From Cupriavidus necator N-1 (lineage in GTDB: Bacteria; Pseudomonadota; Gammaproteobacteria; Burkholderiales; Burkholderiaceae), in NCBI RefSeq assembly GCF_000219215.1, contig NC_015727.1:1364001-1428000 (forward strand): a stretch of DNA of 64,000 bases. The letters run 5' to 3'. A program made the position numbers and the translations under genes. Of this stretch, positions 45,729 through 58,255 are shown one piece after another. Position 1 is the first letter of the stretch, and every line of letters starts with the position of its first letter. Under the pieces are notes generated by a model. It worked only from the letters and a program-made list of their open reading frames with translations, was not told the origin of the DNA and searched no databases.

Positions 45729-46442
45729 TCAGCTGAGCATGCCGCTCATGGCCGCATAGACAGCCGCCGCGGTCTTGTTGGGCACGTTGAGCTTGGTGAT
45801 AATGTTGCGGATGTGGAAGCGCACGGTGCATTCCGACAATGAGAGCAGATCGGCAATCTCGAGCGTGGTCTTCCCATCGGCCGTCCACTTGAGCACCTCG
45901 ATCTCCCGGCTCGTCAGAGCCCCGGCCCGCTGGGCGAAGTGGTCGGGCAGCATCACTTCCGATAGGCGCAGATGGGCAATGGCCGTCAGCCCGCGCAACT
46001 CCGCTTCCTTGTACGCACGCTCCTCGTCCGCTAACGGCGTCGCCGACCGCGCCACGGTGAACATGCCGCCCTGCGAGGCGCCGCTAAAGCAGGATTGGGC
46101 CCACCCCACACGCAGGCCAGCGCCCTGCGCTTCTTCCCAGAAGGCGGGCACCCGCGCAAACATTCTCGGCGTCCATACGAAGGGGGTGTCGGATTGCTCG
46201 CCGCGCGCGATCGTGGGATCGATCTCCAGATAGCGGTTGCGCGCGTAACGCTCCTGCCAGATGGCGGGATAGTTATTCCGCATCAGTGTCTCGGGTCTCG
46301 ACACTGGCCAGGGTGTGCGCAGCCCGTACGCGCAATACTCGAACTCGAGCTTCACCGCCACGCGCAGTATGGCTTCGAAGATCGCCTGCTCGCTATGCAC
46401 ACCATCGATGGAAGTCAGCAAATCAAGTAGCCAGTGCTTCAT
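45729..46442 (-). CDS. LuxR-family quorum-sensing regulator
   Basis: About 237 residues from the ATG at 46442, after GGTGAGGCC. The N-terminal autoinducer-binding domain shows the expected Trp/Tyr/Asp pocket (PAIWQERYARNRYLEIDPTI, then TPFVWTPRMF and GGMFTVARS). The C-terminal HTH is LTSREIEVLKWTADGKTTLEIADLL and TVRFHIRNIITKLNV. It should bind the acyl-homoserine lactone made by the LuxI protein at 48188-48859 and act on the repeated 19-bp boxes around it. Confidence 0.92.
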   Translation of the reverse strand: MKHWLLDLLTSIDGVHSEQAIFEAILRVAVKLEFEYCAYGLRTPWPVSRPETLMRNNYPAIWQERYARNRYLEIDPTIARGEQSDTPFVWTPRMFARVPAFWEEAQGAGLRVGWAQSCFSGASQGGMFTVARSATPLADEERAYKEAELRGLTAIAHLRLSEVMLPDHFAQRAGALTSREIEVLKWTADGKTTLEIADLLSLSECTVRFHIRNIITKLNVPNKTAAAVYAAMSGMLS

Positions 46443-47981: not shown

Positions 47982-48191
47982 CTAATTGGTCGACTTCCGT
48001 CCCCCGGCATGCCAGTCTCCGGAGATAAACGGCGTGGCGTTGGGTGCAACGTGACATTGGGTGCGTTCCCGGTTGGGCTGCTGACACTCCAGATGCGAGG
48101 GATTTCGCGCTGGCATTTCAGGCGCGGTGGGTCCCTTCGCCGCACCGTTCACCAACAGCTTGACGAGCGCGAGCAGCAGTATTTCGCTCAT
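47982..48191 (-). CDS. 69-residue small membrane-anchored protein coupled to luxI
   Basis: The ATG at 48191 overlaps the luxI stop by 4 nt (ATGA), so it is translated with the synthase. It has one short hydrophobic helix (SEILLLALVKLLVNGAA), then a polar tail with two Cys (HLECQQPN and RTQCHVAP). It parallels the 73-residue protein at 47565. No family recognised. The tight coupling suggests a role linked to signal synthesis, export or response. Confidence 0.7.
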   Translation of the reverse strand: MSEILLLALVKLLVNGAAKGPTAPEMPARNPSHLECQQPNRERTQCHVAPNATPFISGDWHAGGRKSTN

Positions 48192-48859
48192 CGCGTCATC
48201 TCTCCGATGTGATGGGAGTTCAGCGGGTCCTCCTGACTGTCCGATGAGTCGGCGTCGGCCGGGCACAGGGACCGCTGATCTGCGTCGCCCATCGCGCTCT
48301 GGTATTGCCCGGTATCGATGCGACACGCAAAGAGTTGTCGCCCGTCGATGGCGACCGGCGATGCTGTCTTGAAGCGCAATCCGGCGCGCTGAAGAAGCCG
48401 CTCGATGCCGACGGGAGAGACTGACACAAGTTCGCTTGCACCGAGTTCCGCTGCGCACATAATGGTCGCGCGCAGCAGGGCCGTGGCCGAACGGGAAGAG
48501 AACTGCACATTGCCCGGCAACGCCGGCGCTTTGAGTTCCACCACCGCGAAGCGCGAGATCTCCCAGATGTTGGGAGACGCCGGAGCCGGCGAGCCGTGCA
48601 GTAGCGCCGGAAAGATGTCGCGAAGCAGGTATGGGCCGGTAGTGGGCAACAGGCGCGCCATGCCACGGATCGCACCACTATGCTTGTCCAGTGCCACCAC
48701 ATACACGGTATCTTCACGATCGAACTGATCGAGTTCGATCCCATCGGGACAAGGCAGCTTCCAGCCCAGGCGCTGCACGAAGACTTCGTGCCGATAGCGC
48801 GCAAGGCGCGACATCATGGCCGGCTGCAGGTGGGTCGATTCCCCCGAGATAATACGCAC
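48188..48859 (-). CDS. LuxI-family acyl-homoserine-lactone synthase
   Basis: About 223 residues from a GTG at 48859, chosen because CGGAGGAAAGT lies just before it; the protein then begins RIISGESTHLQ as LuxI proteins do. Invariant residues are visible: LARYRHEVFVQRLGW (Arg, Phe, Trp), LDQFDRED (Asp pair), IRGMARLLPT (Arg) and WEISRFAV (Glu, Arg). It joins S-adenosylmethionine to an acyl carrier to make an AHL. The C-terminal 30 residues are acidic and longer than in most LuxI proteins. The gene has a perfect lux-box dyad upstream. Confidence 0.94.
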   Translation of the reverse strand: MRIISGESTHLQPAMMSRLARYRHEVFVQRLGWKLPCPDGIELDQFDREDTVYVVALDKHSGAIRGMARLLPTTGPYLLRDIFPALLHGSPAPASPNIWEISRFAVVELKAPALPGNVQFSSRSATALLRATIMCAAELGASELVSVSPVGIERLLQRAGLRFKTASPVAIDGRQLFACRIDTGQYQSAMGDADQRSLCPADADSSDSQEDPLNSHHIGEMTR

Positions 48860-48889
48860 ACTTTCCTCCGAGCACTCTGCTGTGTCCGG

Positions 48890-48937
48890 ATTAGATCGCC
48901 TCATTCGACCTTGGAGCAACCGTCAAAACTGACGGGG
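48890..48937 (-). promoter_or_regulatory. Lux-box promoter of luxI
   Basis: The box at 48920-48935 is a perfect dyad, CCGTCA-AAAC-TGACGG. On the minus strand it abuts a -35 TTGCTC (48914-48919), an 18-bp spacer, and a -10 TCTAAT (48890-48895). The leader to the GTG start is only about 25 nt. The arrangement equals that of the macA promoter and supports positive feedback on luxI by LuxR-AHL. Confidence 0.75.
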
Positions 48938-49130
48938 GTACACATGGCATACCTCGGGACACTGCGTCACGCCGAGCTCCGCCTGGGTGAATAACGCACT
49001 GCTTTGATGCGTACGCGCATCGCCGATGTAGAGCGTCAGGCGTGCGGTGTACAGGTCGCCCTTCTGGAGGCCGTCTGCCTCGCCCTGTCGAACCCACGCC
49101 TGGGCGTGCGAGTTCGTGCCATCAAGGTGC

Positions 49131-49218
49131 GCAGCGCGCGTCTCCCGTCTTCATCATGTGCCATTTCGACTGCGGTTCGGCGGGCCGACTGAGAACGGCG
49201 CTGGCGAGCGTGGATCTT
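49131..49218 (+). repeat. 88-bp imperfect direct repeat, copy A
   Basis: Matches 49812-49899 at about 85% over 88 bp without gaps, by eye. Shared blocks include GTGCCATTTC and GGCGCTGGC. Copy B abuts the IS701-type remnant, so the repeat may be an end of a lost element. Confidence 0.6.
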
Positions 49219-49811
49219 GACCCTTCAAACTACAGACGGATATCCAGCGCAAACGGATGCCGCCGCAACTCCGGCGGCCCGTCGCCCGTCAGGCGCAGCC
49301 GCGCGGGCAGTCCGGGCGCATCGGCGGGCAGGACATGGCATTAAACGCGCCAGTGCAGCTTGCCGATGGTATCGGCGATGCGTGGCAGGCAGTCCGCTTC
49401 AAAGCGGGCGAAGATGTGTGGTCAAGGTAGGGGCGTCCTGACGTTGCGGGTTGGCGGTGCTGGCTGCGCCTGCCGTGCGCCGCAGTGGCAGGCCACTATA
49501 CGCCAGCCGGCGTCAGGCCGGCCGGTACACCCAGAAGCCAGGTGAGTGGCTCCAAATCGCCCTAGTAGCACCGGTGACCCGGGACTCCATATTCCCCTTA
49601 CCTTTAAAAGGTTGTAAAAGGCCTTTTAGGTAGCCTGCTTGTTCCAGCCGTTGGAAGCCCGCCTGTTCCAGCGCCGTGAAGCGCGTCGACAGAGCGGGCA
49701 TGGAAGGCCGGGTGTGCCAGCTATCCCCTGGGGATAGCACGGCAGTGTTCGGCTAGTTCATGGGGCTGTGGGCGCTGTACCTCTCGCGCTCTATACCAAA
49801 CGACCGGTTTG

Positions 49812-49899
49812 GCAGTGCGCGTCCCCCTTCTTCATCTTGTGCCATTTCTACTGCGAATCGGCGGACCGGCTAAGAGCGGCGCTGGCAAGCGTGAATCTT
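49812..49899 (+). repeat. 88-bp imperfect direct repeat, copy B
   Basis: Same orientation as copy A, 681 bp away. It interrupts the IS701-type transposase frame just after the TGFP motif. Confidence 0.6.
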
Positions 49900-50221
49900 C
49901 GCGGAAAGCCGGTATCGTCAATAATCAGCGCCTCCGGCAACCCGCACGCCGGCTGATTCGCTCAAGCGTGTAACTGCGCACCGCATCGAGCACCGCTTCG
50001 TCCGACCACGGCGCATCGGCTACAAAATGATGCAGGCGTTGGTGCTCCGAGCGTACCCGGTTTGGCGACAAATGCGCCGCCATGGGCTCAACGCTCTTAC
50101 GCTTGACCGGCAACATCAACCCTGTGCAGTAGCCACGAAACGGCTCCACGCGATCAGCATGCCCAAGCGACTGCGCCATCAAAGACACGTAATCCGCGAA
50201 CCGTTCCGTAGAGGCTCCCAT
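49900..50221 (-). pseudogene. IS701-type transposase, N-terminal remnant
   Basis: The ATG at 50221 starts FADYVSLMAQSLGHADRVEPF, PVKRKSVEPMAAHLSP and LHHFVADAPWSDEAVL, the N-terminal region of IS701/DDE-superfamily transposases. After about 90 residues there is a frameshift; the other frame still reads ALIIDDTGFP, the first catalytic Asp block. The rest is missing, replaced by repeat copy B. It is inactive. Confidence 0.85.
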
Positions 50222-50469
50222 CGCTTTCCTCGTAATTCACTTGAAGACAAGCGAATAATGCCTTAATTCTTAACACAGTAGTACTAGTTAGTTTTTTAAG
50301 GTGGATAAGTTAACGGAGCCGCTAGCCCGCACCGGTATTGGCTTTGCGGGCATTCCGTACTCCTGATAGCACGAGGCTGTTCACAGGTTGTCCCCAAGTG
50401 CGGCCCGGTTGGCAGGCAGTCGGGACCTGCGCCGCGAACCGCGCCGGTCCCGACCCTTGAATGGGCACG

Positions 50470-50685
50470 CTAGCCGTAGCTGATCGCGTCCACCGAACAG
50501 CTGGACTGATTGGATTGGTAGCTGTTGGCGCGGACCCGCCATTGGCCGCCACGTTCGGCTTGCAGCCATAGCTCGATGGCGGTGATCAGAGTGGCGTCAT
50601 GGACATGCTTGTCCTGGCGCCAGCAGACCTTCACCTCGGTGCCGTTGGTGGTTTCAGTAAATTTTTCCTGGCAGTACTTTGGCAT
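50470..50685 (-). CDS. 71-residue hypothetical protein (fourth gene of the paralogue operon)
   Basis: Start after AAAGGAGTGAGCC. Small soluble sequence beginning PKYCQEKFTETTNG, with three Cys (about residues 5, 21 and 63), Trp-rich in the middle (VCWRQDK, ELWLQAERGGQWRV). No family recognised, no signal peptide. It lies 68 nt after the 84-residue gene, in the same direction. It may form a compact beta domain; the function is unknown. Confidence 0.7.
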   Translation of the reverse strand: MPKYCQEKFTETTNGTEVKVCWRQDKHVHDATLITAIELWLQAERGGQWRVRANSYQSNQSSCSVDAISYG

Positions 50686-50753
50686 GGCTCACTCCTTTAG
50701 CGTAGATCGACGCAGACGTTTCAACTGAAACGGTAAAGTTCGGGCGATGACGT

Positions 50754-51008
50754 TCAGACGGTGTAGTAGTCGCGCCATGCCGCAACCAGTTGAGTGCGGA
50801 TCTGCTCGGGCAATTGGTTGTTGTTGAACGTAGGCGGCTTCCTGTTGCCGTAGTAGTAGGCCGTGCGGTCATTCGTCGCCATATGGTCGCGGGCGGGATT
50901 GTCGACGCTGCGGCTCATGTGGATGCCGGGGAAGGCGGGATTTTCATAGTAGACCCAGGTGCCGCCGTTGTCGGGGTCGACATAGCCGCTCACTTTCCAA
51001 TCGTCCAT
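50754..51008 (-). CDS. 84-residue hypothetical protein (third gene of the paralogue operon)
   Basis: The ATG at 51008 follows AGGAGAACTGC. It is an aromatic-rich small protein: VSGYVDPDNGGTWVYYENP, then FPGIHMSRS, AYYYGNRKPP and a helical C-terminus EQIRTQLVAAWRDYY. No family recognised, no signal peptide and no Cys. It lies 21 nt downstream of the 431-residue paralogue, so it is clearly co-transcribed. Confidence 0.75.
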   Translation of the reverse strand: MDDWKVSGYVDPDNGGTWVYYENPAFPGIHMSRSVDNPARDHMATNDRTAYYYGNRKPPTFNNNQLPEQIRTQLVAAWRDYYTV

Positions 51009-51029
51009 CATTGCAGTTCTCCTGACGTG

Positions 51030-52325
51030 CTACTGCGGTTTGTGCGTCGGCGGTGCTGACGCGCCGTCGACGCTGCGAACCGGCTTGCTAATGACACCAA
51101 GCAAGACCGGAGTATTCGAATCGCTGGCATCGAACCGCACCTCCGTTCCCGTGCATCCGCTGCAAGCAAGCGCGGCGGCCATGGCGGGCGCGCGCCGTAT
51201 GCTGAAAGGGCCGATGCTTGCCACCGACGCGGCCAGCTCCTGCGCCAGGCGGCTATTGGCTGCCCGCAGCGATAGGCGCGGTCGAAAGCCGATAACCGCG
51301 CGCGCCGGAAGCAGGCCGAGCGCACCATCCATACCGAAAAAATCCGGCGCGCCAGCCGGCAGCGTTGCGTGCCCGCCTTCGAGCAGCTCGGCGTCGAACC
51401 AATTGCCGGGCTGTATAGGGAAGACGCCGAATCCGGCCAGGGTCAGGGTCAGACCTTCGAGCAACCCGTCGGCCGCAGTGCGCTGCAGCGCTGGCCGTTC
51501 CGCAACCGCCGCACTGGCATTGGGCATGTGCAGTCCGAGAAAGGCGGGCCAGCCGGCCCCGACGAAGGGATCCGGTGTCGGCGCTGCGGCCGGTGCGGCA
51601 GATGCCCCCAATGTGGCCGGCAGACCCCGCGGGCTGGCGAGCGTGGTAGGCGAAGGCAAGGTCAGCGACAACGCCGGCGGCAAATCTGCCGGCGAGCTGC
51701 GCCAAGCGCCAAGGCCGGTGGCCCAGCCGCCCAGCGAGTACCGCGGACAGCAGAACTCGGTACTGCCTGCATACAGGCTGGCGGCCATGTTCAGTTCGCT
51801 GGCCTCCGGCAGGGACGCGATAAGGCAGCGATTCATCGCCACGCTCAGCGCCGGCGCCCGGCCGTCCAGCGTAGCGATCAGGGCATCATGGGCGCCCAGC
51901 AGTCCTGCGCGCTGGCCATCCTGCGGGGCCGCGTCGGCGACAGCGCGGCCGGCAATGCCGTGCAGCGGCAGGTGCCGCGCCTGCAGCAGTCGCCGGTACC
52001 GCGCCAGATCCGTGCTCAAGAGGTCGCCAAGTGCTGCCGGCCGCAAAGGTCCGCGCCGCGTCATGGATGCGGCGGCCTCCACCAGAAAGCTCAGGCATAG
52101 CCAGTAAGCCGTGAATAGGCCGCTGCGAGAAGCGTAAGCACCCGCGCTGGCGGGGATGCCATTGCCGAGCTGGAAGATGCTCCAGTTGACGACCGCGGGC
52201 TGCGCATCACCCAGCCCGCTGAAAGAAGTAACAGCGGCAGGAGAGAACAGATCCGGCGCGGCGACGCCGGCATGGTTTGCGATGGCGTCGGCGTAGAGGC
52301 GCCATAGCGCGTGATCGGACAGCAT
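51030..52325 (-). CDS. Large unknown protein, paralogue B
   Basis: About 431 residues from the ATG at 52325, after GGAGATCTC. It is homologous along its length to the protein encoded upstream (52428). Shared blocks are an N-terminal LW-x-x-Y helix and an IPAS-AYAS-GLFTAYW segment, then a C-terminal domain with GFGVFPIQPGNWFD, GAPDFFGMDGALGLLP, AVIGFRPRL, IGPFSI and PVLLGVISKPV. The centre is Ala/Pro-rich. No signal peptide, membrane helix or known domain was recognised. It is more diverged and Ala-rich than its partner. Confidence 0.8.
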   Translation of the reverse strand: MLSDHALWRLYADAIANHAGVAAPDLFSPAAVTSFSGLGDAQPAVVNWSIFQLGNGIPASAGAYASRSGLFTAYWLCLSFLVEAAASMTRRGPLRPAALGDLLSTDLARYRRLLQARHLPLHGIAGRAVADAAPQDGQRAGLLGAHDALIATLDGRAPALSVAMNRCLIASLPEASELNMAASLYAGSTEFCCPRYSLGGWATGLGAWRSSPADLPPALSLTLPSPTTLASPRGLPATLGASAAPAAAPTPDPFVGAGWPAFLGLHMPNASAAVAERPALQRTAADGLLEGLTLTLAGFGVFPIQPGNWFDAELLEGGHATLPAGAPDFFGMDGALGLLPARAVIGFRPRLSLRAANSRLAQELAASVASIGPFSIRRAPAMAAALACSGCTGTEVRFDASDSNTPVLLGVISKPVRSVDGASAPPTHKPQ

Positions 52326-52427
52326 GAGATCTCCAGCGGGCGGACGGTTGTCAACTGCAGCCGAGGCGGATGCACAAAGGTGTCGGACGTGGCGCCCCGA
52401 ACTCATCTGCGGGGCGCCATGCGCGCA

Positions 52428-53789
52428 TCAGCCGCCCAGCTTCTGGCTCACCACGCCGAGCAGGATGGGAAGGGTGCTGCTGACCGGCCCGATCGTAACG
52501 GTGGCTGAAGCGTCATCCCACTTGATGTCCTGCTTGGTGCCGCTGGTCGATACCGTGGCCGAGCCGATGCGGAACGGCCCGATGCCGATCGAGGCCGTGG
52601 CTTGCGCTTGCCAGCTGTTCTTGACGTTGCTGTAGTCGCTTGCCGTCATTTTTAGCTTCACGGTCGGCTGAAAGCCGGCGATGATTTGCGTCGGCACCCG
52701 GGCCAGCGCACCGTTGTCGCCGAAGAAGTCCGGCGCGCCGGGCTTGAGCCGGTTGTGATAGGTGGCAACCAGCCCGCCGTTGTCCCACCACAGTCCGGGG
52801 CCGATCGGAAAGGTGCCAAAGCCGGTAAAGTCCACCGCCAGGCTAAAATCGGAGCTGCTCGTGTTGATGCTAGTTTTCTGCCCGCTTGCCGAACCGCCGC
52901 CGAAGAAGGAGAAGAAGTCGCCGAACAAGCTGGCATCCACTGACGTGCTCCAGCCGGACTCGTCGAAGTCATAGCTGCCGGAACTCGAGCTGATCGAGAT
53001 CGAGGCGCCCGCGTTGTTCTTGCCTGCCACACTGGCCTGCTGCCACTCAGCATACTTGGCGCTAAATGCCTGCAGTGAATAGGACGGTGCGAAGGCCGAG
53101 AACAAGTTGTTGGCCGGGACCGGATTGGTGCCACCGATCACCACCGGCTGGCTGCCGGCCGGCGCCACACTGCCCATCTTGACAGGCATGTTGTAGGGGT
53201 TCTGCGTGGCCATGTTCTGCGCGCCGTTGATGCCGACCTTGGCACGCGCCTGCTGCACGACGCTATAGCCGGGGCCGTAGGCCTTGATCATGATCTCGTC
53301 GTAGGCGCCGGATGCGCCGATCAGCGCATTGTTGGCATTCAGATAGCTCGGGTAGTTCTGCTGTACCCAGGCCTGGAACGGCGGAGGGTTAGGATTGACG
53401 TTCTTGTAGGCGCCATAGGCGTTGTAGGCCGCCACCTGGACATTGTTGAAATTGGTCTGTGCGGTGTTGAGCGCGGCCGTCGCCTGGTTCACCTGGCTTT
53501 CCAGGTTGGGATTGACCATTGCCCCGAGGTCCACCCAGTCGAGGAAGGTCGCATAGGCGGCAAGCAGTCCGCCGGCGGAGGAGTAGGCGGGACTGGCGGC
53601 GGGAATGACATCGCCGATGCCATACACGTAGTAGTTGGTGATGCCGGGGTCGCCATTGCCGAGGTCGACATTCAGCGTGGTCGAGCCAGCGCTGAATTGC
53701 TGCTGGTCGGTGAGCCCATTCGGGAACGCTTGGGCCTGCACAGCGCCCATCCACTTCTTCCAGAGATCCAAGGTATCGACATTTGCCAT
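52428..53789 (-). CDS. Large unknown protein, paralogue A
   Basis: About 453 residues from the ATG at 53789, after GGAGCAGAGAA. The N-terminal part (ANVDTLDLWKKWMGAVQAQ, GIGDVIPAASPAYSSAGGLL) and the C-terminal domain (GFGTFPIGPGLWWDNGG, GAPDFFGDNGALARVP, IIAGFQPTVKL, IGIGPFRIG, LPILLGVVSQKLG) match paralogue B. The middle has a helical stretch and a Ser/Gly-rich region (ISISSSSGSYDFDES, FFSFFGGGSASG) like those of surface or assembly-prone proteins. No signal peptide and no recognised family. It is first in a four-gene operon. Confidence 0.82.
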   Translation of the reverse strand: MANVDTLDLWKKWMGAVQAQAFPNGLTDQQQFSAGSTTLNVDLGNGDPGITNYYVYGIGDVIPAASPAYSSAGGLLAAYATFLDWVDLGAMVNPNLESQVNQATAALNTAQTNFNNVQVAAYNAYGAYKNVNPNPPPFQAWVQQNYPSYLNANNALIGASGAYDEIMIKAYGPGYSVVQQARAKVGINGAQNMATQNPYNMPVKMGSVAPAGSQPVVIGGTNPVPANNLFSAFAPSYSLQAFSAKYAEWQQASVAGKNNAGASISISSSSGSYDFDESGWSTSVDASLFGDFFSFFGGGSASGQKTSINTSSSDFSLAVDFTGFGTFPIGPGLWWDNGGLVATYHNRLKPGAPDFFGDNGALARVPTQIIAGFQPTVKLKMTASDYSNVKNSWQAQATASIGIGPFRIGSATVSTSGTKQDIKWDDASATVTIGPVSSTLPILLGVVSQKLGG

Positions 53790-54008
53790 TTCTCTGCTCC
53801 AGTTGGTTTGGCGGAAATGGACGACAACGGCGGCAGTGCCAGCATCGTCCACAGACGCGCCGTGCCGCCATGTCGCTTGCACCGCCCGTCTGGATTCCAT
53901 GGTCGGCGATCGCGGGCGCCGGCGAACTGTGCGGAAGACTGATTTGCCCCTTCAAAGAAACTGATTTGCGCATCGGCAGGAGCCGCATATGGCAAGTGTT
54001 GCCGCCGT

Positions 54009-54653
54009 TCAGAACAGACCTTCGTGAATCGCATAGCGGGTCAGCTGTGCAATGCCCTTTACTTGGAGCTTCCTCATGATGTGCTCGCGATGCGTGCCGA
54101 CAGTTTTGGTGCTAATGTGCAGCTGCTCCGCGATCTCTCTGGTTGAGTGGCCTTCTACCAGCAGCTGGAGGATCTGGCGCTCGCGCGCACTGAGCGTGGC
54201 GCCCGGGGCCGGCGTGCCATGACTGCGTGCCGAGCGCAAGCTGGCCAACATGGCGGTGGCCACCTCGGCGCTCAGGTAGGAACGTCCGCTAGCCACGGTG
54301 CGAATGGCTTTGCCCAATTCGTCGAACGCGCAGTCCTTGAGCAGATAACCCAGAGCGCCCGCATCCAGCGCGGCGGCGATTATGCGCTGCTCGCTGTGCG
54401 CCGATACGCATAGCACGCGCACCGACGGTGACAACGGCAGGATGCGGCCGATCGCATCAATGCCGTTGAGCGCCGGCATCCCGACGTCAAGCGCGACCAC
54501 GTCCGGGCGCAAGCGGTCGGTCAGGCGCATCGCTTCTATGCCGTCGGCGGCTTGCCCGACGACTTCCATGTCGCTCTCCTTGCACAGCAAGGCCGCCAGT
54601 CCTTCGCGAAACAACCTGTGGTCGTCCGCTAGCAATACACGGATGCGAGGCAT
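54009..54653 (-). CDS. NarL/FixJ-type response regulator
   Basis: About 214 residues from the ATG at 54653, after GAGGTTGAAT. The receiver domain has IRVLLADDHRLFREGL (acidic pocket), VVALDVGMP (phospho-Asp), VLCVSAHS and YLLKD (Lys). The LuxR-type HTH is LSARERQILQLLVEGHSTREIAEQL with KTVGTHREHIMRKL. It starts 2 nt after the kinase stop. It lies 219 bp upstream of the unknown paralogue operon on the same strand and is a good candidate for its regulator. Confidence 0.93.
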   Translation of the reverse strand: MPRIRVLLADDHRLFREGLAALLCKESDMEVVGQAADGIEAMRLTDRLRPDVVALDVGMPALNGIDAIGRILPLSPSVRVLCVSAHSEQRIIAAALDAGALGYLLKDCAFDELGKAIRTVASGRSYLSAEVATAMLASLRSARSHGTPAPGATLSARERQILQLLVEGHSTREIAEQLHISTKTVGTHREHIMRKLQVKGIAQLTRYAIHEGLF

Positions 54654-54655
54654 AT

Positions 54656-55513
54656 TCAACCTCGCGGACGGGACGCGCGCGCGCTGCCGCCAGTGTCGCC
54701 GTAGGAGAGGCCCAGGCGCGTGGCGGGCCTGCGCCGGCCTTGCGGCAGCGGTAGCACAATGCGGACTTGTGTGCCGCTGCCGAGGGCAGAATTCACCTCC
54801 AGCCTTCCCCCCAACGCGGCCAGCTGGGCCGCGCAACTGGACAGACCGAAGCCGCCCGCAGCGTTACCGGACGACGAGCAGAGCCGGGGATCGAAGCCGC
54901 GGCCGTCGTCGCTCACGGTGACATAGACATGGCCGCGACCGCAGGCACAGCGCACCCAGACCTGTTTGGCGCCGCTGTGCCGGCGCACATTGGCAAGCAA
55001 TTCGTTCGCTACGCGCAGCACCACAGCCATAGTGGTCCGGTCAAGCGACACGGGCGGGCCGTGCAGTTCCAGACGCGTCAGCAGCGCATCCTGCCGCCTT
55101 GCCTGAAAGCGGTCTGCGAGACCGCGCAGGGCATCGTCCAGGCGCCCCTGCACCAGCAAGCCGAGGCCGAGGTCTAAGGTGACCGCGCGAATCGTACCAA
55201 CCGCATCGTCGACCAGCGAGCGCGTTTCGTCGATCAGAGCTTTTGCCGTGGGCGCACACGCCAGGCCTTCCAGCTCGCGCAGCCGCAGCTGTGCCAGCGC
55301 GAGCGCCTGGCCGACTTCATCGTGCAAACCGCAGGCGATGCGCTGGCGCTCACGTTCGCGCACGCGGGCCTCAAGGGTGGCCAGCCAGTGCCGGCTCTGC
55401 CGCCCGCTGCGCGGCGATGCTTCAGTCGCCGATGCGATTCCGTCCCGTTCGCAAAGACGCTGCTGCCCCGAAAATGCTGACCATGCTGACCTCATATTCT
55501 TGTTCCACGTCAT
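54656..55513 (-). CDS. Soluble NarX/DesK-type sensor histidine kinase
   Basis: About 285 residues from the ATG at 55513 (GGGGACTCGC upstream). The HisKA_3 phospho-acceptor motif is ERQRIACGLHDEVGQALALAQ (His near residue 68); the ATPase domain has ANELLANVRRHSGAK (N box), VSDDGRGFDP (G1) and GGFGLSSCAAQL (G2). There is no membrane helix, so the signal is cytoplasmic or relayed by a partner. It is co-transcribed with the response regulator. Confidence 0.92.
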   Translation of the reverse strand: MTWNKNMRSAWSAFSGQQRLCERDGIASATEASPRSGRQSRHWLATLEARVRERERQRIACGLHDEVGQALALAQLRLRELEGLACAPTAKALIDETRSLVDDAVGTIRAVTLDLGLGLLVQGRLDDALRGLADRFQARRQDALLTRLELHGPPVSLDRTTMAVVLRVANELLANVRRHSGAKQVWVRCACGRGHVYVTVSDDGRGFDPRLCSSSGNAAGGFGLSSCAAQLAALGGRLEVNSALGSGTQVRIVLPLPQGRRRPATRLGLSYGDTGGSARASRPRG

Positions 55514-55681
55514 GCGAGTCCCCATAAAGGCGAAAAAATCGCCATTATCCGAATATCTCTTTTAAATATTATTCAATTGACATATATTGCATGAAAGCCT
55601 TATTCCGCCTGAAGTGAGCAACGGGCTCCGTGCCATCATCAGGTGGCCTGCGCGAGCTCCGCAATACTGCCAATGCCGTAG

Positions 55682-56107
55682 TCAGGAGGTGTCCGGCGGG
55701 TCTAGCAGGCCATGACGCAGGCAATGGATTGCCACCCCCGCGGCATTGCCGATGCCCAGCTTCCGATACAGGTTTTCACGGTGCTTGCGTATCGTCAGAT
55801 CACTCAGACCGAATTCCCGCGCGATCTGCTTGCTGGTCTGTCCACTGGCAATCCGCAGCGCGATATCGCGCTCGCGCGGTGTCAGCGAAGGCGGCGGCGC
55901 TAGACGGTGAGAAGGCTTGTCATCGAGCACGGACAAGCTTTGCGCCGCGTCGCGGGCGCTGCCCTCTCGCGGGTCAGCATAGGCTGCGGGCGCCGGCGCG
56001 GCTTGTACCCCGTCCGCGGGCGCACTTTCCGCTTGCGCGCTGCCTACTTGTGCAGTGTCAGGTTGCAGGCGCGAGTCGGACGAGGGAGCGAGCACGACGA
56101 AATCCAT
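55682..56107 (-). CDS. LuxR-type HTH protein, single DNA-binding domain with Ala-rich leader
   Basis: About 141 residues from ATG 56107; ATG 56140 or 56119 are alternatives. The first 75 residues are low-complexity Ala/Pro/Ser. The C-terminal HTH is LTPRERDIALRIASGQTSKQIAREFGL with LTIRKHRENLYRKLGI. There is no receiver or ligand domain. It overlaps the upstream HTH gene, which is a paralogue, so the two are a tandem duplicate pair. Possible GerE-like coregulators of the adjacent kinase system. Confidence 0.75.
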   Translation of the reverse strand: MDFVVLAPSSDSRLQPDTAQVGSAQAESAPADGVQAAPAPAAYADPREGSARDAAQSLSVLDDKPSHRLAPPPSLTPRERDIALRIASGQTSKQIAREFGLSDLTIRKHRENLYRKLGIGNAAGVAIHCLRHGLLDPPDTS

Positions 56108-56309
56108 GCTCGACGGCATATGAGGCCAGTTGCGCGGCATTGCGCGTGCCGGTCTTGGCTAGCAGATTGCTCCGGTGCTTGCGCACGGTCAGCACGCTGA
56201 TCCCCAATTCGATGGCAATCGAACGGCTATTCTTGCCGGCGGCGATCATGCGGAGAACTGCCTGTTCGCGCAGGGTCAATGTGTGCCGTGGTGCGTGTTG
56301 TGCCGGCAT
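56058..56309 (-). CDS. LuxR-type HTH protein, stand-alone domain
   Basis: 83 residues from ATG 56309, preceded by GGGAAGG and an in-frame stop upstream. Almost the whole protein is a GerE-type HTH: LTLREQAVLRMIAAGKNSRSIAIELGI and LTVRKHRSNLLAKTGTRNAAQL. Closely paralogous to the HTH encoded by the overlapping downstream gene. Stand-alone HTH proteins of this size often act as dimeric regulators without a sensor. Confidence 0.8.
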   Translation of the reverse strand: MPAQHAPRHTLTLREQAVLRMIAAGKNSRSIAIELGISVLTVRKHRSNLLAKTGTRNAAQLASYAVEHGFRRARSLVRLAPAT

Positions 56310-56770
56310 GCCTTCCCGCGGATTCGTTGGAGTCGGTCATTGTCGCAGATCGGCCGGTGCACGCTGGCCAGGCCTCCTCCGTCTAACGAACATCGCGACA
56401 AACTAGATAAAAGGCGGCTTCTGCCTGGCGTTTAGATTGTGCCTCAAAGTGTGCGCGCCACGCCGACGCTTGACACGACCTAGGGAGCTGGGTGATGGGT
56501 CGGCTTCAACATCGACGCCCAGAGACGGCGACCAGCAAGATGGGAATGCCAGTCATGGTGGATGTGTCCGGCGACAACAATTACGCGCCAAATAGACTTT
56601 AGCGGTCCTCTGCCAGCCCTGCTGCGATCAATCGGAAAGGCCAATCGCTCGGAACGGAATATCTCGATGCGTCTTAAAAATATGTTTCGTCCTTCGGCGC
56701 CCGGAGGCTGGTGGCCGTAGCGCTAACCGCGGTTCTGGGTGTTGTTTGACCAGGTGCGCGGCAAGCCTCG
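56310..56770. other. 461-bp non-coding stretch upstream of the IS4-family element
   Basis: No convincing gene. It should hold the promoter for the leftward tandem HTH genes. The end next to the insertion sequence belongs to the interrupted IS605-type end described separately. Confidence 0.5.
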
Positions 56771-56780
56771 GCCTTTAGGC
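56771..56780 (+). repeat. Target-site duplication of the IS4-family element, left copy
   Basis: GCCTTTAGGC directly precedes the left inverted repeat and recurs directly after the right one (58256-58265). A 9-10 bp duplication fits IS4-family insertion. Confidence 0.85.
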
Positions 56781-58255
56781 CTGAGGATTACCCACAAATC
56801 CGGTTGTAAACTGGATTGAGCGGTGTTAACTTTCGCCCATCCTATTTATGTTGTTGCAGCGGATTGGCGATCAGAGACGACACGGCAGACTGGGCTAGCG
56901 AAGAATTCGCAGAGGCGAGTCTCGGCGATGCTCGCCTGTCGCAGCGACTGGTCGCGCTGGCCCGGCAGCTGGCCATCAGTCCACACACTTCGCTCCCCCA
57001 GGCCCTGTCACCAGCTGAACTGAAGGCGGCCTACCGCTTCTTCGATAACGATCAGGTCGATACCAACGGCGTGCTGGCGCCGCATATTGCACAGACGTTG
57101 CACCGCATGGAACAGTTGCCAGTGGTGCTGGCAATACAGGATACGACCGAATTCAATCTGACGCACCTGCACGCCACAGAGGGCTTAGGTCGCTGTACCG
57201 GTGGCAATGAGCGTGGTTTCCTGATGCACAGCCTGCTGGCAGTCAGTCCAGAGGGGCTGCCGCTTGAGGTGCTGGGCATGAAGACGTGGACACGCGCTGA
57301 AGCAACCAAAGGTAGTGCTGCGCAGCGCAAGTCCCGACCCGTCCACGAGAAAGAAAGCGCTAAGTGGATCGAGGGTCTTGCCCATCTGTCTGCGCTGAAG
57401 TCGCGCTGTGCACAGACCCAACTGGTAGGGATCGGAGATCGCGAAAGCGATGTGTATGAACTGTTTGCTGCCGAGCGACCAGACGGAGTGGACTGGCTGG
57501 TGCGCGCAGCATGGAATCGCTGTGCCCGCCATCCCCAGCGCTATCTCTGGCAAGCGGTATTGGACACCCCTGCGACAGGCTACACCGAGTTGCTGATTCC
57601 GGCCAGAGGTGCACGCACCCTACGCACGGCCCGCCTGACGCTGCGATACGCGCCCGTTCGCCTGCAACCACCTCAGACGCGGGCTGGCTTGCCCGAGCAG
57701 AATGTCTTCGCTGTGCATGTCATCGAGGACGAACCGCCCGCCGGTATCGAGCCGCTCGAATGGATGCTACTCAGTTCGGTGCCCACGCACTCGCCTGAGC
57801 AGGCTCTTGAGCGGCTTCAGTGGTATGCGCGGCGCTGGACCATCGAGACCTGGCACCGTGTGCTCAAGAGTGGCTGCCGTATCGAGGCCCGCCAATTCGG
57901 TACACTGGAACGCTTCGTGCGGGCCACCTCCCTGTTTGCCGTAATCGCCTGGCGCATTCTGTACACGACTCTACTGGCTCGCCTTGATGGCGAGTTGCCC
58001 TGCGAGGTAGTCCTTCAGCCCATCGAATGGCAGGCTCTGTATTGCCGCGTACACCGAACCACCCGGCCACCGGACAAAGTGCCATCGCTGAATCAGGCAG
58101 TACTGTGGATCGCCACGCTGGGTGGCTACCTGAATCGCCGCAGTGATCCTCCGCCCGGCGCCACGGTTATCTGGCGAGGCTTCTTCGTCCTCCACGAGAT
58201 TACCGAAATGTTCCGCATCTTCAGTTCAGGTCCATAGGATGTGGGTAAAGCTCAG
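56781..58255 (+). mobile_element. IS4-family insertion sequence, apparently intact (1475 bp)
   Basis: The ends are inverted repeats: left CTGAGGATTACCCACA, right (complement) CTGAGCTTTACCCACA, 14 of 16 matching. A perfect 10-bp direct repeat flanks it. One transposase gene fills the element. The insertion split an older IS605-type end (the flanks read across as one hairpin sequence). Confidence 0.9.
56816..58237 (+). CDS. IS4-family transposase (IS50/Tn5-like group)
   Basis: Up to 473 residues from a TTG; the true start could be a little downstream, before DWASEEFAEASLGDARLSQRL, the Tn5-type DNA-binding opening. DDE residues lie in LAIQDTTEFNL, GIGDRESDVYE and in the YREK signature YARRWTIETWHRVLK, which is complete. 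The frame is uninterrupted, so the element may be active. Confidence 0.92.
   Translation: MSGVNFRPSYLCCCSGLAIRDDTADWASEEFAEASLGDARLSQRLVALARQLAISPHTSLPQALSPAELKAAYRFFDNDQVDTNGVLAPHIAQTLHRMEQLPVVLAIQDTTEFNLTHLHATEGLGRCTGGNERGFLMHSLLAVSPEGLPLEVLGMKTWTRAEATKGSAAQRKSRPVHEKESAKWIEGLAHLSALKSRCAQTQLVGIGDRESDVYELFAAERPDGVDWLVRAAWNRCARHPQRYLWQAVLDTPATGYTELLIPARGARTLRTARLTLRYAPVRLQPPQTRAGLPEQNVFAVHVIEDEPPAGIEPLEWMLLSSVPTHSPEQALERLQWYARRWTIETWHRVLKSGCRIEARQFGTLERFVRATSLFAVIAWRILYTTLLARLDGELPCEVVLQPIEWQALYCRVHRTTRPPDKVPSLNQAVLWIATLGGYLNRRSDPPPGATVIWRGFFVLHEITEMFRIFSSGP

Follow-up and report, generated by a model that had tools for sequence, protein, structure and literature searches.

The described systems closest to the gene cassette reported here, which encodes two large paralogous proteins (A and B) followed by two small ones (C and D) and lies in a 64,000-nucleotide stretch of Cupriavidus necator N-1 DNA (contig NC_015727.1, positions 1,364,001 to 1,428,000; referred to below as the window), are the two-component CDCL (cholesterol-dependent cytolysin-like) pairs of Bacteroidota, bacterial gasdermins, phage holin-endolysin cassettes and, for the regulatory genes upstream, NarL/FixJ-type two-component systems. 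In two published accounts (PMC11169675, PMC11952106), CDCL pairs appear as adjacent paralogous genes with unequal products, protease involvement and Bacteroidota hosts, features that have counterparts among A, B and their relatives (for proteases, genes lying near some of the relatives), and the long and short CDCL members carry PF01289 and SpII signal peptides. The products of CDCL pairs act together. In contrast, A and B have no PF01289, no signal peptide by a simple test and only chance-level matches in the PDB, and the absence of PF01289 and of export signals argues that they are not CDCLs. Bacterial gasdermins, described in part in PMC11952106, resemble A and B in having no export signal and in the caspase- or trypsin-like gene that lies near certain relatives of the pair (loci L033, L055 and L027). 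They differ in that A and B are two large paralogues with no sequence match and with dedicated two-component genes, and no protease was seen among the genes of the window cassette. Phage holin-endolysin cassettes share with six of 21 loci of the wider superfamily a wall hydrolase that has no signal-like N-terminus and would need a route through the inner membrane, whereas A and B contain no strong 19-residue hydrophobic stretch, A has no match in phage records or IMG/VR, and most loci have no hydrolase. The upstream genes resemble NarL/FixJ-type systems in comprising a kinase and a regulator with the expected domains; however, the likely site of the window regulator is a near-unique repeat of 22-bp period before one operon.

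Judged by sequence, A and B stand at the centre of a protein superfamily that has not been described before and that repeatedly contains paralogue pairs. The single pair aligns with a BLASTP E-value of 8e-17, and comparison of a profile of 33 A-family sequences (A1) with one of 16 B-family sequences (A5) gives E 2e-50 over 371 aligned columns, by which the paralogy proposed in the first-pass annotation is borne out as full-length homology. The motifs on which that proposal rested (GAPDFFG-xx-GAL, GF-x-P-xxx-L, I-x-PF-x-I and P-x-LLGV-x-S) are present in both proteins, and its coordinates and lengths for the four genes are right, C being one residue shorter than given in Table 1 (84) when counted from its second ATG. 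Its statement that none of A to D has a signal peptide also held in a simple hydropathy scan, and by the same kind of test no member of the A family (33 proteins) or of the B family (16 proteins) has a signal-peptide-like N-terminus. No strong 19-residue hydrophobic or transmembrane stretch was found in A or B, with one of 33 and one of 16 relatives barely above the cut.

Beyond the two families, the A1 profile matches a set of 23 distant proteins (A3; E 4e-7) and a broader set (A4; E 2e-12). By eye, the C-terminal half in the A1, A3 and A4 alignments consists of a strand, a segment rich in Gly, Ser and Thr and bearing a short aromatic tip, a strand, a conserved loop, a strand, a second segment with a GPF motif, and a final strand. 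The segment ahead of the conserved strand is composed to 54% of Ser, Thr, Gly and Asn in A itself (P0001), whereas the matching segment of B (P0002) has 23% of these residues and 42% Pro plus Ala. The richest window of these four residues begins at a median relative position of 0.59 in the A family and 0.57 in A3, as against 0.08 in the B family. Hydropathy alternation of the beta type was found in 21 windows of the A family, which exceeds all 500 column shuffles (mean 4.5, maximum 18).

A scan of contigs yielded 18 loci, namely three in Cupriavidus, six in Pseudomonas and one each in Rubrivivax, Janthinobacterium, Pseudoduganella, Methylotenera, Woodsholea, a Gemmatimonadetes metagenome-assembled genome (MAG), an alphaproteobacterial MAG, Lewinella and Robiginitalea. 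The Robiginitalea protein, a distant member, has 261 relatives, and among the 120 of them that were listed the few named ones belong to Bacteroidota (Cellulophaga, Chitinophaga, Spirosoma, Hymenobacter and others), a Nitrosomonas MAG and Ktedonobacter. The superfamily is sparse in Bacteroidota, with A3 members in four of 198 genomes and A4 members in nine of 395, counts that both include the genome on which the draw was centred and that overlap in G517, G616 and G631. One of 398 Pseudomonadota genomes carries an A4 member, a figure that undercounts the A branch because A4 misses the A protein of the window itself.

No known family accounts for these proteins. None of A to D has a match above cut-off in Pfam, NCBIfam, PHROGs or PADLOC, no Pfam family is matched by more than one of the 33 A-family members at E <= 0.1, and sequence searches of the PDB, for which A, D, the D alignment, the Robiginitalea relative and the sets A1, A3 and A4 served as queries, returned nothing or chance-level hits (best E 0.35). 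PF01289 (CDC/CDCL) is absent from A to D and, at E <= 0.1, from the 33 A1 members; neither PF01823 nor a match to a solved MACPF sequence was found for A to D, the A1 members or in PDB sequences, and there is no Aerolysin or ETX-MTX2 match in Pfam for A to D or the A1 members. The NCBIfam matches of three of ten distant relatives fall far below cut-off. Two single matches were dismissed as chance: DUF1207 for A (E 0.012, below cut-off, in one of 33 family members) and TIGR00709 for the distant relative P0131, whose E-value of 6.6e-5 corresponds to 21.7 bits against a cut-off of 401.6. Protein C has a weak single-sequence match to gamma-S crystallin (E 0.0086) and no Pfam match, and an alignment of seven close C proteins did not strengthen it (profile E 0.056, per-domain i-Evalue 40). 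Among the open-licence PMC papers searched, none contains the motif string of A and B, and none mentions Cupriavidus basilensis together with pore-forming. The earlier view that the proteins belong to no recognised family thus stands for Pfam, NCBIfam, PHROGs, PADLOC and PDB sequences, and the cassette remains, on sequence grounds, a good candidate for an undescribed system.

All four genes are real and under purifying selection. The ratios of nonsynonymous to synonymous substitution rates for A, B, C and D are 0.09, 0.30, 0.16 and 0.09 against Cupriavidus sp. LEh25 (L038), and 0.11, 0.32, 0.22 and 0.10 against a more distant relative (L039), B having the highest values of the four (0.30-0.32). 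The genes run in the same direction with gaps of 102, 18 and 68 nt between A and B, B and C, and C and D, a spacing that suggests a single transcript. An in-frame upstream ATG at 52406 would extend B to 458 residues. Protein C has 13 aromatic residues in 85, including three Trp, and protein D has seven in 71, also including three Trp. No RNA family reached its gathering score within 49000-57000, and scans for promoters and terminators gave fewer sites than in shuffled sequence.

Inside Cupriavidus the four genes occur as a set: A, C and D are present in the same six of 60 genomes, with B directly behind A in all six and intact in five. In C. basilensis OR16 (G005; L018, the same as L040), unlike the other five, the parts of B lie in two reading frames, which reflects either decay or an assembly error. 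The homologue searches, in which the roughly 8,000 best-sharing candidates were scored, returned 45 proteins for A and eight for B (those of the window included), and among 399 genomes from the order A is matched only in the window's own. In Pseudomonas, A and B occur together in all six loci and a D homologue in four (L020, L021, L024 with two copies, and L025; none in L022 or L023). Among the 18 loci of the contig scan, C is confined to the three Cupriavidus loci, and D to these and the four Pseudomonas loci. The idea that all four genes travel together therefore applies within Cupriavidus, one split B apart, and fails outside the genus. As C was not found there and D is patchy, while the A-B pair is kept, the core consists of A and B, with changeable small partners.

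The genes flanking the cassette differ among the Cupriavidus genomes (by eye), which suggests a mobile cassette. Within the window, a short transposase-like open reading frame (ORF; 49925-50221, by eye) lies downstream of it and a Tn5-type transposase gene (56864-58237) upstream, an arrangement consistent with mobility. Two plasmid records from Cupriavidus, each about 1.19 Mb long, also carry A, and one of them is the same place as L041. A phage origin was rejected, with no A match in 50,697 phage records or IMG/VR and no A3 match in IMG/VR. In Cupriavidus sp. LEh25, about 350 bp separate D from the start of a contractile injection cluster of the PVC/Afp-like type (L038, 10869-17889; Pvc16_N by Pfam, with sheath-, tube- and LysM-like genes by eye).

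The four genes named in the first-pass annotation are confirmed, but the unit is larger, for genes for small helix-turn-helix (HTH) proteins, a histidine kinase and a response regulator, together with a direct repeat, lie upstream of A, and these genes run in the same direction as A (Table 1). The HisKA_3/HATPase kinase and the receiver-GerE regulator place the pair among NarL/FixJ two-component systems. By eye, kinase and regulator occur in all seven Cupriavidus loci (the window and L038-L043), each with at least one small HTH gene; in Pseudomonas the regulator is present in six of six loci and a kinase ORF in five, the exception being L024 (the gene list of L025 ends after the regulator). 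The repeat lies between regulator and A, 130-182 bp before A, and is exact in 7/7 Cupriavidus and 5/6 Pseudomonas loci, of which L022 and L023 are near-identical; one half is altered in L020. In the window a single match was found against 0.16 expected at one mismatch. Across the six Cupriavidus genomes the exact pattern has nine copies (one or two per genome), once before each A and three times elsewhere, whereas a reversed control pattern has none. In the four loci L028-L031, a search of the 260 bp ahead of A found no copy of the repeat; small HTH genes were noted beside some of these loci, and no such regulator. The kinase/regulator pair presumably activates genes A to D by binding this repeat of 22-bp period. 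On the other side of the cassette, beyond D, the window also holds a LuxR-type regulator gene (45729-46442, by eye) and an autoinducer synthase gene (48188-48919; PF00765, 5.5e-26).

Table 1. Coordinates of the cassette and its upstream elements in the window
Feature	Length (aa)	Position	Strand	Remarks
Gene A	453	53789-52428	-	Paralogue with Ser/Thr/Gly-rich segments; C-terminal part in the wider superfamily
Gene B	431	52325-51030	-	Paralogue of A; Pro/Ala-rich linker instead of the first Ser/Thr/Gly-rich segment
Gene C	85	51011-50754	-	Aromatic-rich; weak, tentative likeness to gamma-S crystallin
Gene D	71	50685-50470	-	Homologues behind B in 4/6 Pseudomonas loci
Direct repeat AATCAG-N16-AATCAG		53939..53966	-	Period of 22 bp; lies upstream of A; candidate operator for the neighbouring response regulator
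NarL/LuxR-type response regulator		54009..54653	-	Response_reg and GerE
Histidine kinase		54656..55525	-	HisKA_3 and HATPase_c, no other domain family; scanned as 54656-55522
Small LuxR-type HTH protein		55682..56140	-	GerE; actual start possibly downstream of the one given; scanned as 55682-56137
Second small LuxR-type HTH protein		56058..56309	-	GerE; scanned as 56058-56306

Outside Cupriavidus and Pseudomonas, 21 loci were compared (L026-L034, L045-L048, L055-L057 and L082-L086, a match in G1152 being left out). Two superfamily members stand together in 15 of them (L028-L031, L033, L034, L045, L047, L048, L055, L057 and L082-L085, with two genes between the members in L082) and a single member in the remaining six (L026, L027, L032, L046, L056 and L086, the last adjoined by a GerE response regulator gene). 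A peptidoglycan hydrolase gene that shares the strand and is separated by no more than one gene was found in six of 21 loci and a protease-like neighbour in three (L033, L055 and L027), counts that are suggestive only, since the neighbours to be scanned were picked by eye and there is no background rate. The hydrolases are of the Rv2525c type (L029, L030), CHAP proteins (L034, L085) and N-acetylmuramidases (L055, L083), and none of the six has a signal-like N-terminus by the simple scan; a GH25 gene on the opposite strand in L027 was excluded. In two Bacteroidota genomes a gene that precedes the pair on the same strand encodes a caspase domain (PF00656; L033, 4705-6681; L055, 4978-5841), and both genes also match the PADLOC caspase model. 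A trypsin-like gene below its Pfam cut-off lies beside A in L027, L055 also has a trypsin-like protein below cut-off, and a clear trypsin-like gene just under 7 kb away in L084 was excluded from the protease count. Among the superfamily members themselves, a signal-like N-terminus was indicated by the simple scan in L048 (4171-5655; 2.63) and L082 (11903-12823; 2.69), the partner in L048 scoring 1.88, just under the cut.

Several further genes were observed near these pairs. A protein with hemopexin repeats joined to an L,D-transpeptidase (YkuD_2) is encoded downstream of the Robiginitalea pair (L034, 11829-13223), and five TIR-domain genes stand in a run about 5 kb from the pair on an S. meliloti accessory plasmid (L048, 10662-14174). 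The TIR genes, as well as an OmpA gene in L046, were rejected as partners, as neither was noticed in other loci.

The function most favoured by these observations, with a rough probability of 0.35, is that A and B are the two subunits of a membrane-active complex, either a beta-hairpin pore or a lysis device. The view in the first-pass annotation that they are two subunits of one assembly is plausible. The two proteins would assemble into a hetero-oligomer in which A, with two segments rich in small residues that both lie between strands in the manner of beta-pore formers, lines the opening, whereas B, which retains the GPF motif and the strands of the C-terminal part and would have lost the first such segment, may nucleate, target or restrain the opening. 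C and D would act as partners for targeting or protection, and the whole set would be turned on by the kinase/regulator pair acting at the repeat. The homology of A and B, the pairs in 15 of 21 loci, the position of the window rich in Ser, Thr, Gly and Asn, the alternation in the A family, the hydrolase and protease neighbours and the cassette's own repeat all support this proposal. The order of strands and segments in A presumably resembles that of beta-pore formers, and the Ser/Thr-rich strand-loop-strand arrangement would be like that of Aerolysin and ETX-MTX2 proteins. Giant pores of the MACPF and gasdermin type are built on a bent sheet with two transmembrane hairpins, a fold with which the strand-segment-strand order seen by eye in A1, A3 and A4 may be compared.

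A number of results weigh against a membrane-active complex. The alternation test fails in A3 (three windows, below the shuffle mean of 5.1), and the Ser/Thr block is individually significant in two of 33 A-family, 19 of 23 A3 and one of 16 B proteins. Homology of A to the wider superfamily is confined to the C-terminal 150-170 columns, and that of B to A4 is weak (E 4e-4, probability 34%). No sequence match to known pore formers was found in Pfam, NCBIfam or the PDB. The neighbour counts carry the by-eye choice described above, most other loci have no hydrolase or protease neighbour, and by eye none was noticed in the window or in the Cupriavidus and Pseudomonas cassettes. Finally, how A and B, which have no export signal, would reach a foreign membrane is left unexplained.

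The absence of a signal peptide and of a strong transmembrane stretch in A and B, together with their small-residue-rich composition, would also suit subunits of a non-lytic structural assembly, such as a polymer for the surface, the extracellular space or storage that is produced when needed, for which C and D serve as capping or folding partners. The conserved order of the pair, followed by small accessory proteins that change in type, fits such an assembly as well, but it leaves both the peptidoglycan hydrolase and caspase- or trypsin-like neighbours of some relatives and the very patchy distribution of A4 in Pseudomonadota and Bacteroidota unexplained, and it is considered rather unlikely.

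The caspase genes upstream of the pairs in L033 and L055, the trypsin-like gene in L027 and the adjoining signal-less wall hydrolases raise the question of a self-directed defence or programmed-lysis module, in which, as in bacterial gasdermins, proteolysis or induction inside the cell would kill the producer under attack, a role with which the lack of an export signal in A and B agrees. It is an unlikely one for this cassette, in that no protease was noticed in the window or in the Cupriavidus and Pseudomonas cassettes, no PADLOC model matches A to D (that PADLOC includes a gasdermin model was not verified), and a two-component system would be an unusual anti-phage trigger.

It is more doubtful still that A and B are a toxin pair freed by lysis or a carrier against competing bacteria, protists or invertebrates. 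The patchy, cassette-like distribution with differing Cupriavidus flanks, the dedicated regulator genes and the signal-like N-termini of a few superfamily members (those in L048 and L082) are compatible with such a role, and the small partners could serve as targeting or immunity parts; however, A and B themselves have no export signal, no secretion genes were noticed in the conserved cassette, and no sequence match to known toxins was found. A role for A to D as cargo or accessories in an extracellular contractile injection system (eCIS) was rejected as highly improbable, since only in LEh25 does a Pvc16_N gene (PF14065, 9e-34), with sheath- and tube-like genes by eye, stand directly behind the cassette, and no eCIS was noticed by eye beside other loci, while a sheath query finds nothing in the window's own genome (G000) and matches three of six A-bearing against three of eight A-less Cupriavidus genomes (the eight hand-chosen; weak matches may be other contractile systems), which argues against linkage.

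A broader form of the proposed membrane-active complex, which we regard as a long shot, is that the superfamily represents a categorically new two-subunit membrane-opening machine in which a hairpin-bearing and a hairpin-less paralogue co-assemble. It would be coupled to signal-less peptidoglycan hydrolases for regulated lysis in some lineages, gated by caspase- or trypsin-like proteases in others and placed under a private two-component switch in Cupriavidus and Pseudomonas, with hosts in Proteobacteria, Bacteroidota, a Gemmatimonadetes MAG and Ktedonobacter.

A superfamily pair with its own regulator genes and repeat offers a clean handle on these proteins, with one kinase, one regulator and one operon. 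If the pair does open membranes, it would represent a new lineage of two-component pore formers, tied to bacterial wall hydrolases and caspases, and would bear on the origin of bacterial cell-death and killing modules. If it does not, it would still be a new protein assembly under regulation, and its inducer would be easy to test.

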